From Spirochaetales bacterium (GTDB lineage: Bacteria; Spirochaetota; JAAYUW01), in the NCBI GenBank assembly GCA_012797605.1, contig JAAZOT010000057.1, positions 1-34,159 of the forward strand: DNA of 34,159 nucleotides, written 5' to 3'. The notes below the pieces were generated by a model. It saw only the letters and a list, made by a program, of their open reading frames with translations, searched no databases and was not told where the DNA came from. This document shows, piece by piece, positions 22,888 through 31,314 of this stretch (position 1 is the first letter of the stretch; the number at the start of each line of letters is the position of its first letter). The translations under genes were made by a program, and so were the position numbers.

Positions 22888-24006
22888 ATGATAAAACAGA
22901 AAGCTTTATTAATATTTTTCTTTTGCATTTTGTTTTTTTTAATTCCAGTTGTAAGTTTAAGTCAAACAATATTTTTTAACCAATCATTTAATTCAATATT
23001 CTTTTATTCTTCTATAAGTGATACTTTTTCATTTGGAGCCTTAGAAAAATCAAATTTAATTTTTAAGATCAATAAAGATAATTTTATTTTCTATAGCTCT
23101 GCATACTTTATTAAATATGAACTTTTACTTCAAGATCTTACAAATTTACAATACTCTTTTTTTATCAATCAAATATGGTTAAGACTTCCTTTTGAATCTC
23201 TATTTATCGAAACTGGAATAAAAAGTGATTTTGATATTGAACAAATATCTATAGATCTTTTTGCACCATATAATAGGCTTATTTTCCAAACATTTTTTGG
23301 AATAAATTCATCTTCAAATAGATGGCAGGTTTCTTTTAAGTTGTTCTTATCTGAATATTCAATATTTACCATTAAATGGTATTTAGATAGCAAGTTTTCA
23401 AAAAATTCACTAAATATCTATCTTTTTAATTTTTACAATTTTTTTGATCCATTTCAAATAGAGTTGTTTGGAATATTTTATCAAGTAAGTGAAAAATCAA
23501 GATTTGGATTTTCATTAAAGTTTCCTATTTTCTTAAATTGGTTTTTAGGTGGATGCATTCATTTAGATTCAAATTTTGAATATAATTATTTTGAAACAAA
23601 AATGCAAGTTTCTTATTCTTTTTTAAATTTTTCATTTTCAATTTTCTGGTATTATACATCATATATTTTTAACTATATTGATTTTGTAAATATAATAAAG
23701 AATAACGATTTACTTTTAAATCTAGATGAACTTTTAACTTTAAATAACAATCTATTTTCAATAAATTTTAGCTACAACCCTGATCCTTTTTTTTCATTAA
23801 GCTTTTCAAGCATATTTTTAGTAAATCCTTTTGACATCTTTTTCAATTTGACCATAAATTTTCATTTTTCAAATTCATTAGACTTAAAGATTACATTTTT
23901 TAAAAATATTTATAAAACAGAAAATTCTACTATTCATGCCTATTGGATATGTTTTATGAACATTTATTCAGATATTTTTGTTATAGAACTTTCTTTTAAT
24001 ATATAA
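22888..24006 (+). CDS. Secreted aromatic-rich protein, probable outer-membrane beta-barrel
   Basis: 372 residues. I do not recognise a family. A signal peptide (about 1-26, ending VSLSQ) precedes a mature part very rich in Phe, Ser, Asn and Ile. It has many short stretches of alternating hydrophobic residues ended by turns with N or D, the look of an amphipathic beta-barrel of perhaps 14-18 strands. The last residues (IELSFNI) form a strand but lack the canonical terminal Phe. It is the last gene of the Lol-like run, 105 bp after the LolA-like gene, with no evident ribosome site at ATG 22888. Similar operons in other bacteria end with barrel-like genes. It could be the outer-membrane receiver, but this is inference. 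Confidence 0.7.
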   Translation: MIKQKALLIFFFCILFFLIPVVSLSQTIFFNQSFNSIFFYSSISDTFSFGALEKSNLIFKINKDNFIFYSSAYFIKYELLLQDLTNLQYSFFINQIWLRLPFESLFIETGIKSDFDIEQISIDLFAPYNRLIFQTFFGINSSSNRWQVSFKLFLSEYSIFTIKWYLDSKFSKNSLNIYLFNFYNFFDPFQIELFGIFYQVSEKSRFGFSLKFPIFLNWFLGGCIHLDSNFEYNYFETKMQVSYSFLNFSFSIFWYYTSYIFNYIDFVNIIKNNDLLLNLDELLTLNNNLFSINFSYNPDPFFSLSFSSIFLVNPFDIFFNLTINFHFSNSLDLKITFFKNIYKTENSTIHAYWICFMNIYSDIFVIELSFNI

Positions 24007-24182: not shown

Positions 24183-24210
24183 ACTAAAAAGAATGTAAAT
24201 GGAGGAATTA

Positions 24211-26721
24211 ATGAAAAAGGTATCACCACTGCTTATTATTTCCATTATCCTTATTGCAGTGCTCTTTGCCTTTGGTCAATCAACAGTAAAAGGACCGATA
24301 GTAGATAATATACTTGTTGATGTCCGAATGCAAGAAGATATTGGCTTAAAAGACACTGCTGAAGGGAAGACAGATTTATTTTACTGGGGTGTTCAAGGTA
24401 ATGTTTTCAAAGCACTTCCAGCAAATGTAAGAGAGAAACTTGATGTTTATAAGATTCCATCAGGTTCTTGGTCTTTGATGATTAACCCTATTCCTAACAA
24501 AGCACCTTATACAGTAAAAACTAAAGACGGTGAGTTTTTCAACCCATTCGCTATTACCGAAGTTAGATATGCTTTGAACTGGCTTATAGACAGAAAATAT
24601 ATCGTAGATGAAATCCTTGGTGGAGACGGAGATCCATGTTTCACTCCTATGACTCCTGGTCAACCTGGTGTATATAAATACAATCTTATTGCATCTAAAC
24701 TTGGTATGACAGCTAAAGGTGATGAAAAGAAAGCTATTGCTGCTATTACTGCTGCTATGGAAAAAGCTGCTGCACTTCCAGAAAACAAAGGAAGACTCGT
24801 AAAAGGACCAAACTTCTGGCAATTTGATGGAAAAGATGTATCTGTTAAGATTCTTATTAGAGTTGACGACCCTCAAGGAAGACTTCTTGAAGGAAGATAT
24901 GTAGCCGATCAACTTGAAAAAGCTGGTATCAAAGCTGAAAGACTTGAGCTTGACAGAAGAAAATGTATCATGACAGCTTATTACAGCAATCCAGCTGATT
25001 ATCAATGGCATATGTATACAGAAGGTTGGGGAGCTGGAGCAACAAGAAGATGGTGGGATATATCATTAGTTCAGATGTATGCTCCATGGTATGGATATAT
25101 GGCTGGTGGTGCTGATCCTGCTAACTGGAATTATGAAAACAAAGAAATAGATGATATTACCCAAAAGACAATCAACGGTCAGTTTTTAGATGAAAAAGAA
25201 TATTGGGATATGAATCTAAGGGCTTTGGAACTTGGTATTAAAGATGCTTGTAGAATTTGGGTCTGCACACAACAACAGTATTATGCAGCAAACAAAGAAA
25301 GATTCTTAAGCAGAATGGCTTATGGTGTTGGTGATGGTTTAAATCACTGGTCAGTAAAAACTGCAGATGTAAAACCAGATAAAAATAAAGAAAAAACATT
25401 AAGATTCACAGAATATTCTGCCCGCGGAGCTCTTTTTATGAGTGCATGGGATCCTATTGGAACTGAAGGTTTCACAGATGTTTATAGCCGTGTTCTTATG
25501 GAGCCTATGAGAGATGGTGGTTCATTTGAATCTCCTTATTCTGCTGAAGATACACAATGGAGAGTCAATTGGGATCTTAAAAAAGTCATGACAAAAGTTG
25601 CTAAAGATAAAGATGGTAAACTTGTTGGTCAAATAGATGTTCCTGAAAATGCTGTTATTTATGACTCTGGTACAAAGAAATGGAAAGCTGTCGGTAAAGG
25701 TGTAAAAGCTTTTTCAACAGGTACTTATTCATTCAAATTCTCTAAATATCATAATGGTCAAATGGAGAGCCTTGCTGATATTCTTTATTCATTTGCCTTC
25801 TCTATGGAATGGGCAACCAAAGATGGAGATAATGATAAATACTTTGATGATGCTTTTGCAAGTGTTGTAAAACCTGGTCTTGATATAGTAAAAGGTTGGG
25901 TTATAAATAAAGACGGCACAATTACAACTTACTTTGAATTCAACTGGCCTATGGATAAAAACAGAGTAGCTGCAAGTGGTATTCCAGCTTGGACACCTTT
26001 GACACCATGGCCTATTTACGAAGCTTTAGCAAAGCTAGTTGCTGAAGGCGGTGCTGCTTCAAAAAGAGTATATAGCTTTACACCAAGTGGCGAAGAAGTA
26101 ACTGAACCTGATTTATTAGATGCAACATGTGCTTCTGATATTGCCGCAAAAATTGAAGAAATGAAAGCTGCTAAATACATTCCTGCATCAATCGCTGGTT
26201 ATAAGACATTGACTCAGGTAACTAGTGATTATGATCTTGCTATTAAATGGATCAAAGAAAAGAAACATGCATTTATTTCAGATGGTCCTTTCTGGATGCA
26301 AAGCTATGATGCTAAGAACAACCAGATGGTAATGAAAGCATTTAGAGATCCAACATATCCATTTACACCATACTATTGGAAAAACCTCTTTGTGGCACAA
26401 AGAACAAGAATAGATAAGATCGAAACTCCTGCTTCACCTGATAAGACAAAAGATACAGTTATTAATGTCAATGTTTCAATAATTGGTTATCCTTCAGATA
26501 CTGCAACCGCTGCATCTAAAGGAAATATTAAAGCTACTTTAGTTCTACCAAATGGTGAAAAAGTCTATACTGGTAAACTAGTAAAAACAGGTGTATTCCA
26601 AATTGTTATTCCAGCTAAAGATACAGCTACTTTACCTCCTGGAGCATATCTTGTTGTTATCGAAACTCAACTTACAACTGAAGCTCCAGCAGTTGAAACA
26701 ACTTTCTTAGTTTTCTTCTAA
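24211..26721 (+). CDS. ABC importer substrate-binding protein, large SBP_bac_5-like form
   Basis: 836 residues from ATG 24211 (GGAGG directly upstream; an ATG four codons earlier overlaps that site). A signal peptide (about 1-25) ends FAFGQ. Family-5 blocks are present, but their order looks swapped. ITEVRYALNWLIDR, normally mid-protein, is near 115, and RLLEGRYVADQLEKAGIK near 225. The usual N-terminal blocks come later: TLRFTEYSARGALFMSAWDP near 396, YSFKFSKYHNGQMESLADIL near 506. An Ig-like beta domain fills the last 90 residues. It should bind peptides or oligosaccharides for the permeases and ATPases downstream. Codon use is richer in G and C than in its neighbours, as expected of an abundant protein. 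Confidence 0.88.
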   Translation: MKKVSPLLIISIILIAVLFAFGQSTVKGPIVDNILVDVRMQEDIGLKDTAEGKTDLFYWGVQGNVFKALPANVREKLDVYKIPSGSWSLMINPIPNKAPYTVKTKDGEFFNPFAITEVRYALNWLIDRKYIVDEILGGDGDPCFTPMTPGQPGVYKYNLIASKLGMTAKGDEKKAIAAITAAMEKAAALPENKGRLVKGPNFWQFDGKDVSVKILIRVDDPQGRLLEGRYVADQLEKAGIKAERLELDRRKCIMTAYYSNPADYQWHMYTEGWGAGATRRWWDISLVQMYAPWYGYMAGGADPANWNYENKEIDDITQKTINGQFLDEKEYWDMNLRALELGIKDACRIWVCTQQQYYAANKERFLSRMAYGVGDGLNHWSVKTADVKPDKNKEKTLRFTEYSARGALFMSAWDPIGTEGFTDVYSRVLMEPMRDGGSFESPYSAEDTQWRVNWDLKKVMTKVAKDKDGKLVGQIDVPENAVIYDSGTKKWKAVGKGVKAFSTGTYSFKFSKYHNGQMESLADILYSFAFSMEWATKDGDNDKYFDDAFASVVKPGLDIVKGWVINKDGTITTYFEFNWPMDKNRVAASGIPAWTPLTPWPIYEALAKLVAEGGAASKRVYSFTPSGEEVTEPDLLDATCASDIAAKIEEMKAAKYIPASIAGYKTLTQVTSDYDLAIKWIKEKKHAFISDGPFWMQSYDAKNNQMVMKAFRDPTYPFTPYYWKNLFVAQRTRIDKIETPASPDKTKDTVINVNVSIIGYPSDTATAASKGNIKATLVLPNGEKVYTGKLVKTGVFQIVIPAKDTATLPPGAYLVVIETQLTTEAPAVETTFLVFF

Positions 26722-26848: not shown

Positions 26849-27898
26849 ATGTATAGAAAATATGTGATTAAAAGGCTCATCAATGCAGTTGTTATGTACG
26901 CAATTATCCTTATTGCGATATCAGCTATTTTCAACAATACTGCCGAAAGAGTTGTAAGACAGGATATCGATGATTTACTCAAAGCTGAATCTCAAAGGGT
27001 AATAAAATCAGGTAAATTTAATGTTGAGCAACTTGAAGAATGGAAAGCAAAAAGAAAAACTGAGTTGATCCATAGATATTATCTTGATAGACCTTTTTTA
27101 TTACGAGTCTTTTATAACGCTTACAAGGCATTTACCTTTAAATATGGTAATTCTATGATAATGAGATCATCTAAAGGTGATAGAGAAGTCTGGAAAATAC
27201 TAATAGAAGCCCTTCCAAAAACAGCTATTCTATTTACTACAGATTTTGTCATAGTAACATTTTTTGGAATTCTTATAGGCTTAAAAATGGCGAGAAAACC
27301 AGGTGGGGCACTTGACAGAACAGTTAGTTTCATAGCTTTGGCAAGTAATGGACTTCCACTTTGGTGGCTCGGAATGGTTTTTTTATTTTTCTTTGCATAT
27401 ACTATAAAATTATTTCCTTCAGGTGGCTTGCACTCTGTTCCTACTCCAACTGGATTTATGAATTTTCTCGATCTTTTATACCATATGTTTTTACCTCTTC
27501 TTACGCTTTTTATTGCAGGAATATGGGGTAGTGCCTATTTTATTCGTCAATTGGTTCTTGGAACGATGAATGAAGATTTTATAATGTCTGCAAGGGCTAG
27601 AGGTCTTTCAGAAAGTAAAATTCTTTATAAACATACATTAAGATCTGCTGCTCCTCCTATAGTAACAAATGTTATTTTGGGTTTATTTGGTTCCTTAGGC
27701 GGTGCTATAATCTTTGAAGGTATATTTAGCTGGCCTGGCATGGGAAATCTATACTGGATAGCACTTCAACAAAATGACCTCGCTGTTGTCATGGGAAACA
27801 CATCTTTGTCTGTTTTCTTATTTATGATGGGCCTTGTTTTACTTGATTTTATATATGGATTTTTAGATCCTCGAATCAAAGTTGGAGGAAAAGCATGA
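26849..27898 (+). CDS. ABC importer permease, DppB/OppB type
   Basis: 349 residues. The first helix (about 9-27) is followed by a charged extracytoplasmic segment (about 28-95, predicted helical, rich in K, E and R) and then five helices of the transport domain. The ATPase-coupling EAA loop is EDFIMSARARGLSESKILYKHTLRSA, starting near residue 237, with the conserved A-R-A-x-G-x-S pattern of DppB proteins. The late YEG-like FEGIFSWPGMGNLY is typical too. It pairs with the next gene product to form the channel. ATG 26849 has AAAGGA upstream. Its last codons overlap the second permease by 4 bp (ATGA), so translation is coupled. Confidence 0.94.
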   Translation: MYRKYVIKRLINAVVMYAIILIAISAIFNNTAERVVRQDIDDLLKAESQRVIKSGKFNVEQLEEWKAKRKTELIHRYYLDRPFLLRVFYNAYKAFTFKYGNSMIMRSSKGDREVWKILIEALPKTAILFTTDFVIVTFFGILIGLKMARKPGGALDRTVSFIALASNGLPLWWLGMVFLFFFAYTIKLFPSGGLHSVPTPTGFMNFLDLLYHMFLPLLTLFIAGIWGSAYFIRQLVLGTMNEDFIMSARARGLSESKILYKHTLRSAAPPIVTNVILGLFGSLGGAIIFEGIFSWPGMGNLYWIALQQNDLAVVMGNTSLSVFLFMMGLVLLDFIYGFLDPRIKVGGKA

Positions 27899-29295
27899 AA
27901 ATAAAAGAGTTATTTTCGGAAATCTTAGATTTTTTTAAAGATTTCGTTAAAGTTAAAACCGGTTTAATAGGTGTTGGTATAATTTTATTATTCCTAATTC
28001 TTTTAATCTTAGAGCCCTATATATTGGTCTATAAAGATACAAATACTCAATGGAGAAATATTACATACTGGCAAGATAATCCTGCTAATGCAGCTCCTGT
28101 ATGGACACAACTTTTTTCAAAAGATAAAAAACCAATAACAAAGTTTATCTTTGATAGTGAAACAGAAGAAGAAGATATGAATGGAGTTACAGTAAAATCG
28201 TACATTTTTGATTATAAATTTAATTACTCTGAAGCTCCTCAAAATATAATCTTCCATGGTGATGCAAATGGATTTTTAGGCCTTCAAATTTTTGTAGAAA
28301 GACCAGATGGAGAAAAATTTGAGATTTATCGTATTGCTCAAAACTTTTCTAATGAAAACATAAGAATGACAGCAAATACTGAAGCAAGAAAAATTGCCTA
28401 TGATTTCGGTAAGACTGTTGAAGATGAACAGACTCTTTTAAATATTGATCCAAACGACTTAAAAGCATTGGATGTTATTTTTGGTGAAAAAAAGACAGGT
28501 ATTTTAGTTAAACCAATTCCTCTCAAAGGTCATTATAAAATAATTGCCAAAGTTCTATTCTTAGATTCAGCAGCAACTTTTGAAAATCCTTATATTGTAA
28601 TAACTGGTAAGGTTTCTGGTTTACTTGGAACAGATAACTTAAAAAGGGATCTTTTTTCAGGTGTCATAGCTGGAATTAAGTGGGCTTTGTTAATTGGTGT
28701 ACTTACTGCTGTTATTTCGGTATTTATAGGGCTTTTCTGGGGTGTAACATCTGCATATTACGGAGGATTTATAGATGCGGCAATGAATAGAATATATGAA
28801 TTCTTTATTAATATGCCTATGTTACCAATTTTGATAGCTATTTCTGCAGTATTTAAGATTAACATCTGGATTTTAATACTCCTTCTATGTTTATTTAGTT
28901 GGACTGGTTCTGTCAGAACTGTTAGAGCTATTGCTTTACAATTAAAAGAGGAAGTATTTGTTGAAGCTTCTAAAGCACTTGGAGCAAACCATTGGAGACT
29001 TATTTTCAGACATATAATGCCACTTATTTTACCTTTGACTTTTGCAAATATGGCATTTTCTGTTCCTGGAGCTATTTTAACTGAAGCTGGGCTTAGTTTG
29101 CTTGGTCTTGGAGATCCTTCTATAGTTACATGGGGGGGGATATTGCATGATGCTCAAACAGGTGGTGCATTTATAAATAACCTTTGGTGGTGGATTATTC
29201 CTCCAGGTCTTATCATGGCTCTTTTGGCAAGTAGTTTTGTATTTGTTGGATGGGCTATGGATAAAATTCTTCATCCAAAACTTCGTACTAGATAA
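27895..29295 (+). CDS. ABC importer permease, DppC/OppC type, with large periplasmic insert
   Basis: 466 residues; ordinary DppC proteins are about 290. The N-terminal helix (about 22-43) and the transport domain, which opens with GLLGTDNLKRDLFSGVIAGI near 243, are as expected. The motif usually reads GTDxxGRD, here GTDNLKRD. Between them lie about 200 extra residues (45-243), beta-rich and hydrophilic, so presumably periplasmic. The EAA loop is EEVFVEASKALGANHWRLIF; later comes SLLGLGDPSIVTWGGIL. The insert may dock the large binding protein encoded upstream. A run of eight G (29132-29139) codes for the W-G-G in the last motif. The start overlaps the first permease by 4 bp. Confidence 0.92.
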   Translation: MKIKELFSEILDFFKDFVKVKTGLIGVGIILLFLILLILEPYILVYKDTNTQWRNITYWQDNPANAAPVWTQLFSKDKKPITKFIFDSETEEEDMNGVTVKSYIFDYKFNYSEAPQNIIFHGDANGFLGLQIFVERPDGEKFEIYRIAQNFSNENIRMTANTEARKIAYDFGKTVEDEQTLLNIDPNDLKALDVIFGEKKTGILVKPIPLKGHYKIIAKVLFLDSAATFENPYIVITGKVSGLLGTDNLKRDLFSGVIAGIKWALLIGVLTAVISVFIGLFWGVTSAYYGGFIDAAMNRIYEFFINMPMLPILIAISAVFKINIWILILLLCLFSWTGSVRTVRAIALQLKEEVFVEASKALGANHWRLIFRHIMPLILPLTFANMAFSVPGAILTEAGLSLLGLGDPSIVTWGGILHDAQTGGAFINNLWWWIIPPGLIMALLASSFVFVGWAMDKILHPKLRTR

Positions 29296-29318
29296 AATAA
29301 TATATATAAGGTAAAAAT

Positions 29319-30281
29319 ATGGAAAAAGCTCTTGTAGTAAATAATTTAAAGTTATATTATTACACCAGTGCTGGAATTGTAAAAGCCGTTGATGATATTT
29401 CCTTCGATCTCAATGAAGGGGAAACATTAGGTCTTGTAGGAGAATCTGGTTGTGGCAAAACTACTACTGGTTTTGCGTTACTTGGAATGCCTACACCTCC
29501 TGGCAAAATTTCTGGTGGTGAAATTATCATAGATGATCAAAATATAGTAAAATTTTCAGAAAATGAACTTAGAAAAAAAGTTCGATGGGAAAAAATTTCT
29601 ATGGTATTTCAAGGTGCTATGAACTGTTTGACTCCTGTTTATACTGTTGGAGAATTGATGACTGAAACTTATTTACAACATCGACCAGATACTCCAAAAG
29701 ATGTAATATATAAACAAATAATAAAGTACTTAAATCTCGTAGGACTTGCCGATGATATTTACTCTAGATACCCTCATGAACTTTCTGGAGGCATGAAACA
29801 GAGAGTTGTCATAGCTACTGCTCTTTTTCTAGAACCTAAAATAGTAATCCTTGATGAACCTACAACCGGACTTGATGTTGTCGTACAAGCTCAAATCTTA
29901 AACTTAATAAAAGAACTTAAACAAAATTTAAGTATTTCTTCTATTTTTATTACTCATGATCTTGCCACTGAAGCTGAGATTTCGGATAGAATATGTGTAA
30001 TGTATGCTGGTAAAGTCATGGAAATTGGAACAAATGAACAGATATACGGAAGAAAGAATTTACACCCATATACTGAAAAATTACTTAGTGCAACCCCACT
30101 TTTACATAAAAGAGTCGATGAACTTTCCTTTATCCCTGGTGTCCCACCAGATTTAATCGATCCTCCAAAAGGTTGCAGATTCTACGAAAGATGCCATGTT
30201 CATATGGATAAATGTAAAAATGAAGAACCAACAATGAAAGAAATAGAAGATGGACATTACATTTGCTGCTGGAGGTACTAA
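29319..30281 (+). CDS. ABC importer ATPase, DppD/OppD type
   Basis: 320 residues. Walker [11 protein letters not shown]-loop [18 protein letters not shown], signature [15 protein letters not shown], Walker [14 protein letters not shown]-loop ITHDL. The C-terminal oligopeptide/dipeptide-transporter extension has [18 protein letters not shown]; its cysteines may hold an iron-sulfur cluster, as described for several Opp/Dpp ATPases. The signature differs from its sister's (MKQR versus RQR), as is usual for the DppD partner. It starts 23 bp after the second permease. The ribosome site of the next gene (GGAGG, 30271-30275) is embedded in its last codons. Confidence 0.95.
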
Positions 30282-30282
30282 T

Positions 30283-31314
30283 ATGATAAACTCACAGAAT
30301 AAAGAAGTTTTATTAAAGGTTGTTAACTTAAAAAAATGGTTCCCAATGCAACATGGTTTAGCTTCATTATTTGCAAAAGAAATAAAATATGTCAAAGCTG
30401 TTGATGGGATTAACTTTGAAGTATATAAAGGTGAAACATTTGGAATAATTGGTGAATCAGGTTGTGGGAAAACAACAACAGGTAAATTGATTATGCGACT
30501 TTTAGAACCAACAGATGGAAAAATTCTATTAAATAATGAAGATGTCGCTCATATTAAAGGCAAAGAATTAAAAAATTATAGAAAAAATGTTCAAATGATA
30601 TTTCAGGATCCTTATGCTTCAATGAACCCTAGATTCAGAATAAGAAAAGTTCTTGAAGAACCACTTGTAATCCATGGAGTCGGAAATTCAAGGAAATACC
30701 GTGATGAAGTTTCAAAACAGCTTCTTGAGAGTGTTAAAGTGACTCCAGCAGAAGATTTCATGGAAAGATTTCCACACATGCTTTCTGGAGGTCAAAGACA
30801 AAGAGTTTCCATAGGAAGAGGAATTACCCTTTCTCCTTCACTTATAGTTGCAGATGAACCTGTTTCGATGATTGATCTTTCGACAAGAGCAGAAATACTT
30901 GCCATGATGAATAACTTAAAAAGAGAATTTGGTTTAACATACATTTATATTACCCACGATCTTTCAACTGCAAGATATTTTGCAGATAGAATAGCAGTAA
31001 TGTATCTTGGAAGAATAATTGAAATTGGATCTGCCGATGATATAGTGGATAATCCAATACACCCATATACTAGAGTTCTAATAAATGCTGTATGTGAGCC
31101 ACTTCCAGGAAAGGTTAAAGTAATGAAGGACATTCAAATTAAAGGTGAAATTCCAAGTGCAGCCAGAATACCTAAGGGATGTCGATTCCATACACGATGT
31201 TTATTTGCAACTGAAGATTGTATAAATAATCCTGAACCTGAACTTATTGATGCAGGTAATGGACACTATCATGCATGCTCTAGAGCTTCGTATCTTCCAG
31301 CATTTAAGTATTGA
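30283..31314 (+). CDS. ABC importer ATPase, DppF/OppF type
   Basis: 343 residues from ATG 30283, seven bases past GGAGG and one base after the stop of the previous gene; a frame opening at 30250 would overlap it and add 11 atypical residues. Walker [13 protein letters not shown]-loop MIFQDPYASMNPRFR, signature LSGGQRQRVSIGRGI, Walker B LIVADEPVSMIDLS, H-loop THDLS. FQDPYASMNPR and the C-terminal PKGCRFHTRCLFATEDC are typical of DppF/OppF. It forms a heterodimer with the preceding ATPase and powers the importer. It ends the plus-strand cluster. The next gene is convergent, 56 bp away, with no clear terminator between. Confidence 0.95.
   Translation: MINSQNKEVLLKVVNLKKWFPMQHGLASLFAKEIKYVKAVDGINFEVYKGETFGIIGESGCGKTTTGKLIMRLLEPTDGKILLNNEDVAHIKGKELKNYRKNVQMIFQDPYASMNPRFRIRKVLEEPLVIHGVGNSRKYRDEVSKQLLESVKVTPAEDFMERFPHMLSGGQRQRVSIGRGITLSPSLIVADEPVSMIDLSTRAEILAMMNNLKREFGLTYIYITHDLSTARYFADRIAVMYLGRIIEIGSADDIVDNPIHPYTRVLINAVCEPLPGKVKVMKDIQIKGEIPSAARIPKGCRFHTRCLFATEDCINNPEPELIDAGNGHYHACSRASYLPAFKY

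Follow-up and report, generated by a model that had tools for sequence, protein, structure and literature searches.

The locus and its genes

The window, by which we mean the whole 34,159-nt stretch of DNA analysed here, is contig 93 of a 2.07 Mb genome assembled into 104 contigs (89.8% complete). One of the four SBP_bac_5 matches of this genome lies in it, a long substrate-binding protein gene directly followed by genes for two permeases and two ATPases of the DppB, DppC, DppD and DppF types (26849-31314), as listed in Table 1.

The open reading frame (24199-26721, forward strand) has 840 aa when the codons before the Met at 24211 are included. That Met, also the start in the original prediction, is the preferred one because the protein of a genus mate and other relatives align from the same position. 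Helix 10-24 of the predicted structure falls in the signal sequence, which is without the lipobox Cys that several relatives have at the same place. Directly upstream (22888-24006, forward strand) lies a gene for a 372-aa Phe-rich protein that by eye resembles an outer-membrane barrel; it returned no match in Pfam or NCBIfam, and tblastn found nothing related to it in the 79 loci described below.

Table 1. Features of the binding-protein gene and its importer neighbours (window coordinates).
Feature	Position	Strand	Size or evidence
Permuted long family-5 substrate-binding protein gene	24211..26721	+	836-840 aa
N-terminal signal sequence, residues 5-26	24211..24276	+	Read by eye
Residues 31-391, classic C-terminal part (7fi3 ~331-721)	24289..25371	+	vRxALNwLIDR block at 122-135; profile, phmmer, structure, blastp
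Residues 388-399, short loop from classic C terminus to classic N terminus	25360..25395	+	Model and blastp edges
Residues 397-735, classic N-terminal part (7fi3 ~4-322)	25387..26403	+	HxGxxxsxxDilY block at 516-532
Ig-like/macroglobulin-type beta-sandwich tail, residues 736-840 (predicted)	26404..26718	+	Structure prediction; MG2 below cut-off
DppB/OppB-type permease	26849..27898	+	PF00528, E 3.6e-34
DppC/OppC-type permease	27895..29295	+	~220-aa stretch between OppC_N and BPD_transp_1 matches
DppD/OppD-type ATPase	29319..30281	+	ABC_tran, oligo_HPY
DppF/OppF-type ATPase	30250..31314	+	ABC_tran, oligo_HPY

Two halves of one parent in exchanged order

The starting observation, made from the sequence, was that a block typical of the later part of family-5 binding proteins comes before the early ones, and PF00496, phmmer against 7fi3 and blastp against a classic-order archaeal relative all agree with it. 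Residues 122-135 hold the 'late' block, VRYALNWLIDRKYI, and the 'early' blocks follow at about 399-432 (KTLRFTEYSARG...DVYS) and at 516-532 (KYHNGQMESLADILYSF). PF00496 scores 53.6 bits against a curated cut-off of 32.4, which places the protein in SBP_bac_5, and aligns residues 109-282 to profile positions 209-351 only, an early stretch of the protein to a later part of the profile. The second half alone has no match in Pfam. It is the permuted order that leaves PF00496 recognising only a part of such long proteins.

Searching all PDB chains with the whole protein by phmmer returned a single match, 7fi3_A (E 3.4e-69), whose name, Thermococcus kodakarensis OppA, and ligand, an endogenous pentapeptide, we take from the PDB title. 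The match falls into three pieces: residues 398-726 on 7fi3 4-322, 44-315 on 331-602 and 324-389 on 656-721. Similarly, a profile of the second half built from 36 relatives found 7fi3 only in the PDB (positions 5-331 on 3-306, E 4.6e-60). In blastp against the classic-order archaeal protein L190, residues 33-391 match 347-752 and residues 397-726 then match 29-349, so that the matches stop at 391 and restart at 397. Profile-profile comparison with ordinary spirochaete SBP_bac_5 proteins (12 rows, from 15 loci) aligned residues 32-387 to columns 263-561 (E 1e-12), and the stretch with the HxG block gave a short match to columns 124-151 (E 1e-4). No profile aligned colinearly over the full length; they do so half by half only, with the halves swapped.

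Compared with 7fi3, with the Pfam profile and with ordinary relatives, the protein thus departs from the classic block order of SBP_bac_5 (cluster C): both parts are homologous to one parent, they stand in exchanged order, and homologues in the classic order exist. The protein is a true circular permutation of an SBP_bac_5 binding protein, and its order is real rather than a matter of chance. The classic ends are fused by a short loop (about residues 388-399), and the new termini are opened near 7fi3 322/331, right after the GPY block.

Predicted fold and Ig-like tail

The AlphaFold2 model, computed from 46 rows (the window protein and locus translations, unchanged), reached a mean pLDDT of 91.2 and a pTM of 0.88. 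VIA-align placed residues 31-396 of the model on 7fi3 336-757 (Z 31.2, 357 residues, 2.6 A) and also on the late parts of DppA (207-507), OppA, NikA and TM1223; among the matches listed for this first half, by structure and by sequence, only family 5 appears. Folded alone, the second half gave a pLDDT of 89.3, and its residues 12-339 align with 7fi3 39-345 (Z 32.9, 301 residues, 2.2 A). Its VIA-align list was filled by the Ig-like tail, so that besides 7fi3 ordinary family-5 proteins were barely compared with this half; Foldseek matched AppA to it weakly. Where the classic ends are fused, the model shows a helix (383-387), a loop and a strand (400-406). By these predicted models the protein has the family-5 fold, which the circular permutation would appear to keep. 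A structure prediction with such a comparison had been proposed from the start, and the model aligns half by half in the swapped order, not in the classic one.

An Ig-like domain after the permuted part had likewise been expected, and the structure prediction agrees. The last ~107 residues align with Ig-like and macroglobulin domains, among them CD109 and C5 MG4 (VIA-align, Z ~10, low identity), and the Pfam MG2 match in this region stays below cut-off.

Distribution of the swapped order

Among 60 genomes of relatives, the window genome included, 10 have matches; the complete ones are colinear with the window protein, the exceptions being contig-end fragments and one weak match. The wider genome collection gave 79 loci (from the best 80 of 123 matches), mainly from Spirochaetota (Brachyspira, Treponema, Rectinema, Gracilinema and MAGs), Thermotogota and Thermococcus. 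Further loci come from MAGs labelled Bacillota, Atribacteria, Halanaerobiaceae, Planctomycetota, Fusobacteria and Thermoplasmata, although such labels are possibly incorrect. Of the 103 genomes in the phylum of a Thermotogota MAG, 48 match at E <= 0.001, the weakest matches resembling ordinary family-5 proteins in range and length, and 26 places in 22 genomes cover at least 780 of the 840 residues in one piece (E < 1e-150). Only 2 of 116 genomes match in the phylum of a Thermoplasmata-labelled MAG, where the family is therefore marginal. An alignment-based scan of viral contigs found no relative.

Spirochaetota, Thermotogota, Thermococcus and a number of further bacterial MAGs all keep the swapped order; the mention, in the original prediction, of similar long proteins in archaea and Thermotogae was thus correct. 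Treponema putidum has two Ig-tailed gene copies in the window's order (order A below) within ~11 kb (L076 / L100, L106).

Several chain orders in Thermococcaceae

Matches are present in 88 of the 94 genomes from the family of Thermococcus sp. JdFR-02 (L093). The order of parts was read by cutting the ring into eight segments, a-d (residues 36-391) and e-h (396-735), plus the tail T, with segment HMMs rebuilt twice and applied to every ORF of at least 300 aa in the loci. We call abcdefgh order A, efghabcd classic, habcdefg order B and defghabc order C. The 177 complete ORFs comprise 94 abcdefghT, 16 abcdefgh, 37 classic, 19 B, 10 C and one tandem abcdefghabcdefgh; since the archaeal stretches were hand-picked among the matches listed, and some genes were counted twice via overlapping loci, these counts are not frequencies. 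The remaining ORFs are contig-end fragments, split frames and matches to a single or a few segments; two (L216 and L218) have the classic order without e and f, and L142 is a long ORF without e. Tail T was found with order a-h only in the loci examined.

An independent reading by blastp against the classic L190 returned no wrap in any of the 37 classic ORFs, exactly one in all 110 A, 19 B and 10 C ORFs, and two in the tandem. Median edges in L190 coordinates are 330 (end) and 347 (start) for A, 263/302 for B and 641/644 for C, with L127, labelled C, wrapping at 687. In phmmer, the classic L190 runs along 7fi3 in one piece (28-747 on 2-721), while the B protein L131 (45-519 on 262-723, 521-756 on 4-241) and the C protein L147 (150-746 on 12-615, 28-144 on 617-727) are broken at other points, and Pfam ranges move in step with the order. 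At least four orders of this one ring therefore exist in Thermococcaceae. Counting the tandem as a single order, 11 of the 72 archaeal genomes that gave a complete call combine two orders or more, and one genome (G083) holds A, B and C.

The ends of these archaeal proteins vary too. Five order-C proteins (L147, L148, L152, L153 and L146) end in an S-layer-like part and not in a membrane anchor; the PF05124 match at the L147 end is below cut-off. A protein-kinase-like part follows the ring in L145 (order A) and in L136, L150, L151 and L154 (classic), ORFs of 1281 to ~1455 aa except for L136, cut at 1128; kinase motifs were recognised by eye in L136 and L145, and the other ends are alike. It is possible that these ORFs are nutrient-sensing kinases.

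Outside the long family, a family-5 lipoprotein of ordinary size (606 aa) from the window's phylum (L274:2042-3859, forward strand, single-contig genome G020) is also permuted: within a single ORF, PF00496 277-366 matches upstream of PF00496 12-275, and residues 49-175 and 449-580 align with 5u4o 372-500 and 202-331, respectively. Permutation seems to be recurrent in family 5.

Origin of the permuted orders

The family holds tandem-duplicated forms of the kind that a passage by duplication would need. L140 is a 2085-aa ORF with two full rings in tandem on a 1.87-Mb contig, and L141, from another genome, has one and a half rings before its contig stops. L140, being order A twice, shows that duplication happens and does not make it the step behind the window gene. 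Within G083, L147 (order C) and L184 (order B) share 78.8% identity across 656 aligned residues, and L147 is 79.3% identical to L181 from another genome. Many classic, B and C members have alike signal peptides with alike preceding codons (RRQW-M..K.LxLFVMGLMLFS...) and alike C-terminal ends, between which the phase of the ring differs; such alike ends around a rotated ring fit duplication and trimming inside fixed ends.

The route that we consider likely begins with a tandem duplication of the mature ring, in frame, while the signal peptide and the tail around it stay fixed; loss of the two outer parts would then leave a permuted ring. In the window protein the classic ends are joined by a loop of ~12 residues, the new ends lie directly behind the 'GPY' stretch and the new C terminus is extended by the Ig-like domain; in Thermococcaceae the ring has been reopened at two to three other points at least.

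Trees of the rejoined segments (98 and 52 rows, unrooted) need at least 7 order changes where the least possible number is 3, counts that are rough because gene conversion is suggested in the family. Both include all archaeal orders and only 13 and 6, respectively, of the bacterial rows of a 150-row set, whose own tree, with Ig-tailed and tailless order A as separate labels, carried a long-branch warning and was not relied on. AU tests reject a single clade for C (p 1e-74; 4e-65 without L127) and for B (p 3e-42), p values that are optimistic given that the groups were named after seeing the tree. Identity between L147 and L181/L184 is uneven along the ring, 59-60% in segment b and 92-94% in c, and the sequences suggest that gene conversion may have acted among these B/C paralogues.

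In L190 coordinates the ring is opened at the classic ends, near 330-347, at 263-302, at 641-644 and, in L127, at 687, and its different versions carry an Ig tail, a membrane anchor, or an S-layer-like or kinase-like part. On balance we favour an ongoing and repeated permutation, in which the ring was opened at four or more points in one archaeal family, some of them repeatedly, by duplication and trimming inside like signal peptides and tails, yielding differently tethered or fused peptide catchers, one of which then spread to bacteria.

Natural circular permutations are usually viewed as single, old events, and the passage between orders is mostly inferred. Here the classic order, several permuted ones and a two-ring tandem protein coexist in close relatives. 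Together with rotated pairs that are 79% identical within one genome, this makes permutation by duplication a directly testable model. The protein family, with its bacterial and heat-loving archaeal members, is a natural record of protein rearrangement, and its series of orders lends itself to studying what the order of the chain does to folding, to tethering and to delivery of the ligand to the permease.

Importer partner and ligand

A DppB-like gene follows on the same strand within 1500 nt in 41 of the 60 loci (of 79) that have at least 1500 nt downstream. Such a partner next door is not universal, as none of the 11 Brachyspira loci with that much downstream sequence (L056-L062, L065, L068, L087 and L088) has a permease behind the gene. 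The window DppC has 466 aa, and complete DppC proteins next to Ig-tailed A genes have 422-677 aa (39 loci). The lengths beside other orders, classic 473-479 aa (3 loci), B 486 (1 locus) and C 486-497 (3 loci), are similar, so that in this small sample a change of binding-protein order does not go with another type of permease.

The closest solved relative, 7fi3, carries a pentapeptide, and with an OppA-like fold the window protein would most likely catch a short peptide in its cleft and hand it to DppB/DppC. Oligosaccharides, bound by other family-5 proteins according to PDB titles (TM1223, chitin binders), would be less likely ligands. Judged by fold, signal sequence and gene neighbours, the window gene very probably encodes the secreted binding subunit of the adjacent DppBCDF-type importer, circularly permuted by way of duplication and extended by an Ig-like domain, of which the substrate and the duplication are what we infer.

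Alternative explanations

An artefact, be it a faulty assembly or two adjacent binding-protein genes that a frameshift made look like one, might be suspected in a genome of 104 contigs and 89.8% completeness. The same order, however, runs uninterrupted through many independent genomes, single-contig ones included, and its presence on the contigs of so many others means that this contig was not wrongly assembled here. Neither half occurs more than once, the protein has its own signal peptide and the single model is of high confidence, so that this explanation is practically negligible. A convergent or chimeric origin, one half being taken from another gene and mimicking the missing half, could draw on the 397-735 half, which is too far from ordinary SBP_bac_5 proteins for Pfam and gives only a short profile match to them. 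That half nevertheless matches the N-terminal half of 7fi3 with the E-value given above, and relatives in the classic order have the two halves joined in a single protein; descent of both from one parent is the simplest account, and a chimera is very improbable. Scarcely better is the reading that two lobes were swapped in the sequence, in line with the impression voiced in the original prediction. Two sequence halves are indeed exchanged; however, the segments otherwise follow one another around the ring as a circular permutation would leave them, and in cluster C proteins, with the domain make-up of OppA and DppA, the lobes differ from the sequence halves. What happened is not an exchange of lobes: the classic termini are fused and the chain is reopened in another loop, with the fold kept in the models.

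Two further alternatives accept the circular permutation and concern its history and its use. The permuted order could be ancestral in the long family, with the classic order of 7fi3-like proteins a reversion, and order A does flank the classic group in the unrooted tree, with bacterial members on one side and archaeal ones on the other. The classic order is nonetheless that of ordinary family-5 proteins, and rooting on the classic branch, in a tree that is itself unrooted, fits with a single step from classic to A; we regard a reversion as unlikely, while granting it some weight. Improbable, too, is that the protein no longer serves transport and acts as a free or surface-held scavenger or as a sensor component, its Ig tail being used for docking. 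The Brachyspira copies without permease genes behind them and the kinase-like or S-layer-like tails of some archaeal relatives are in keeping with such a role, but importer genes follow directly in the window, as they do in most of the loci counted above. The preferred reading remains a permuted binding subunit of the adjacent importer.

Comparison with known systems

T. kodakarensis OppA (7fi3, family 5/cluster C) is the sole sequence relative in the PDB; both halves match it near full length, and its 732-aa chain is long too. It has the classic order and no Ig-like tail in the matched region, whereas the window protein is permuted and Ig-tailed. No paper devoted to 7fi3 was found in the open-licence literature. 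Ordinary SBP_bac_5 proteins (~500-550 aa) differ in size, in block order and in having no such tail. DppA, OppA, NikA and TM1223, whose late parts fold like residues 31-396, share the HxGxxxxAxD-type block with the window protein. The B and C proteins of Thermococcaceae are built on the same eight-segment ring, reopened elsewhere, and carry a Thr-rich linker with a membrane-anchor-like end, or an S-layer-like tail, in place of the Ig tail.

A search of the open-licence full-text literature, a scope outside which most subscription papers fall, turned up no account of permutation in family-5 proteins. Spirochaetes also have an ABC binding protein of another class that is circularly permuted in nature, TpMglB-2 (Tp0684) of Treponema pallidum, which belongs to Type I/cluster B (PMC4990184). 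According to the available parts of that paper, its order is conserved in other taxa, for which a subclass 'Ic/Bc' was proposed, and is possibly linked to membrane tethering; Brautigam et al. also weighed a convergent or chimeric origin for part of it (PMC4990184). TpMglB-2 differs in being a cluster B sugar binder with one permutation, those same parts of the paper reporting no rotation series (PMC4990184). A permuted binding protein of another class was thus known, and what seems to be new here is permutation in family 5.
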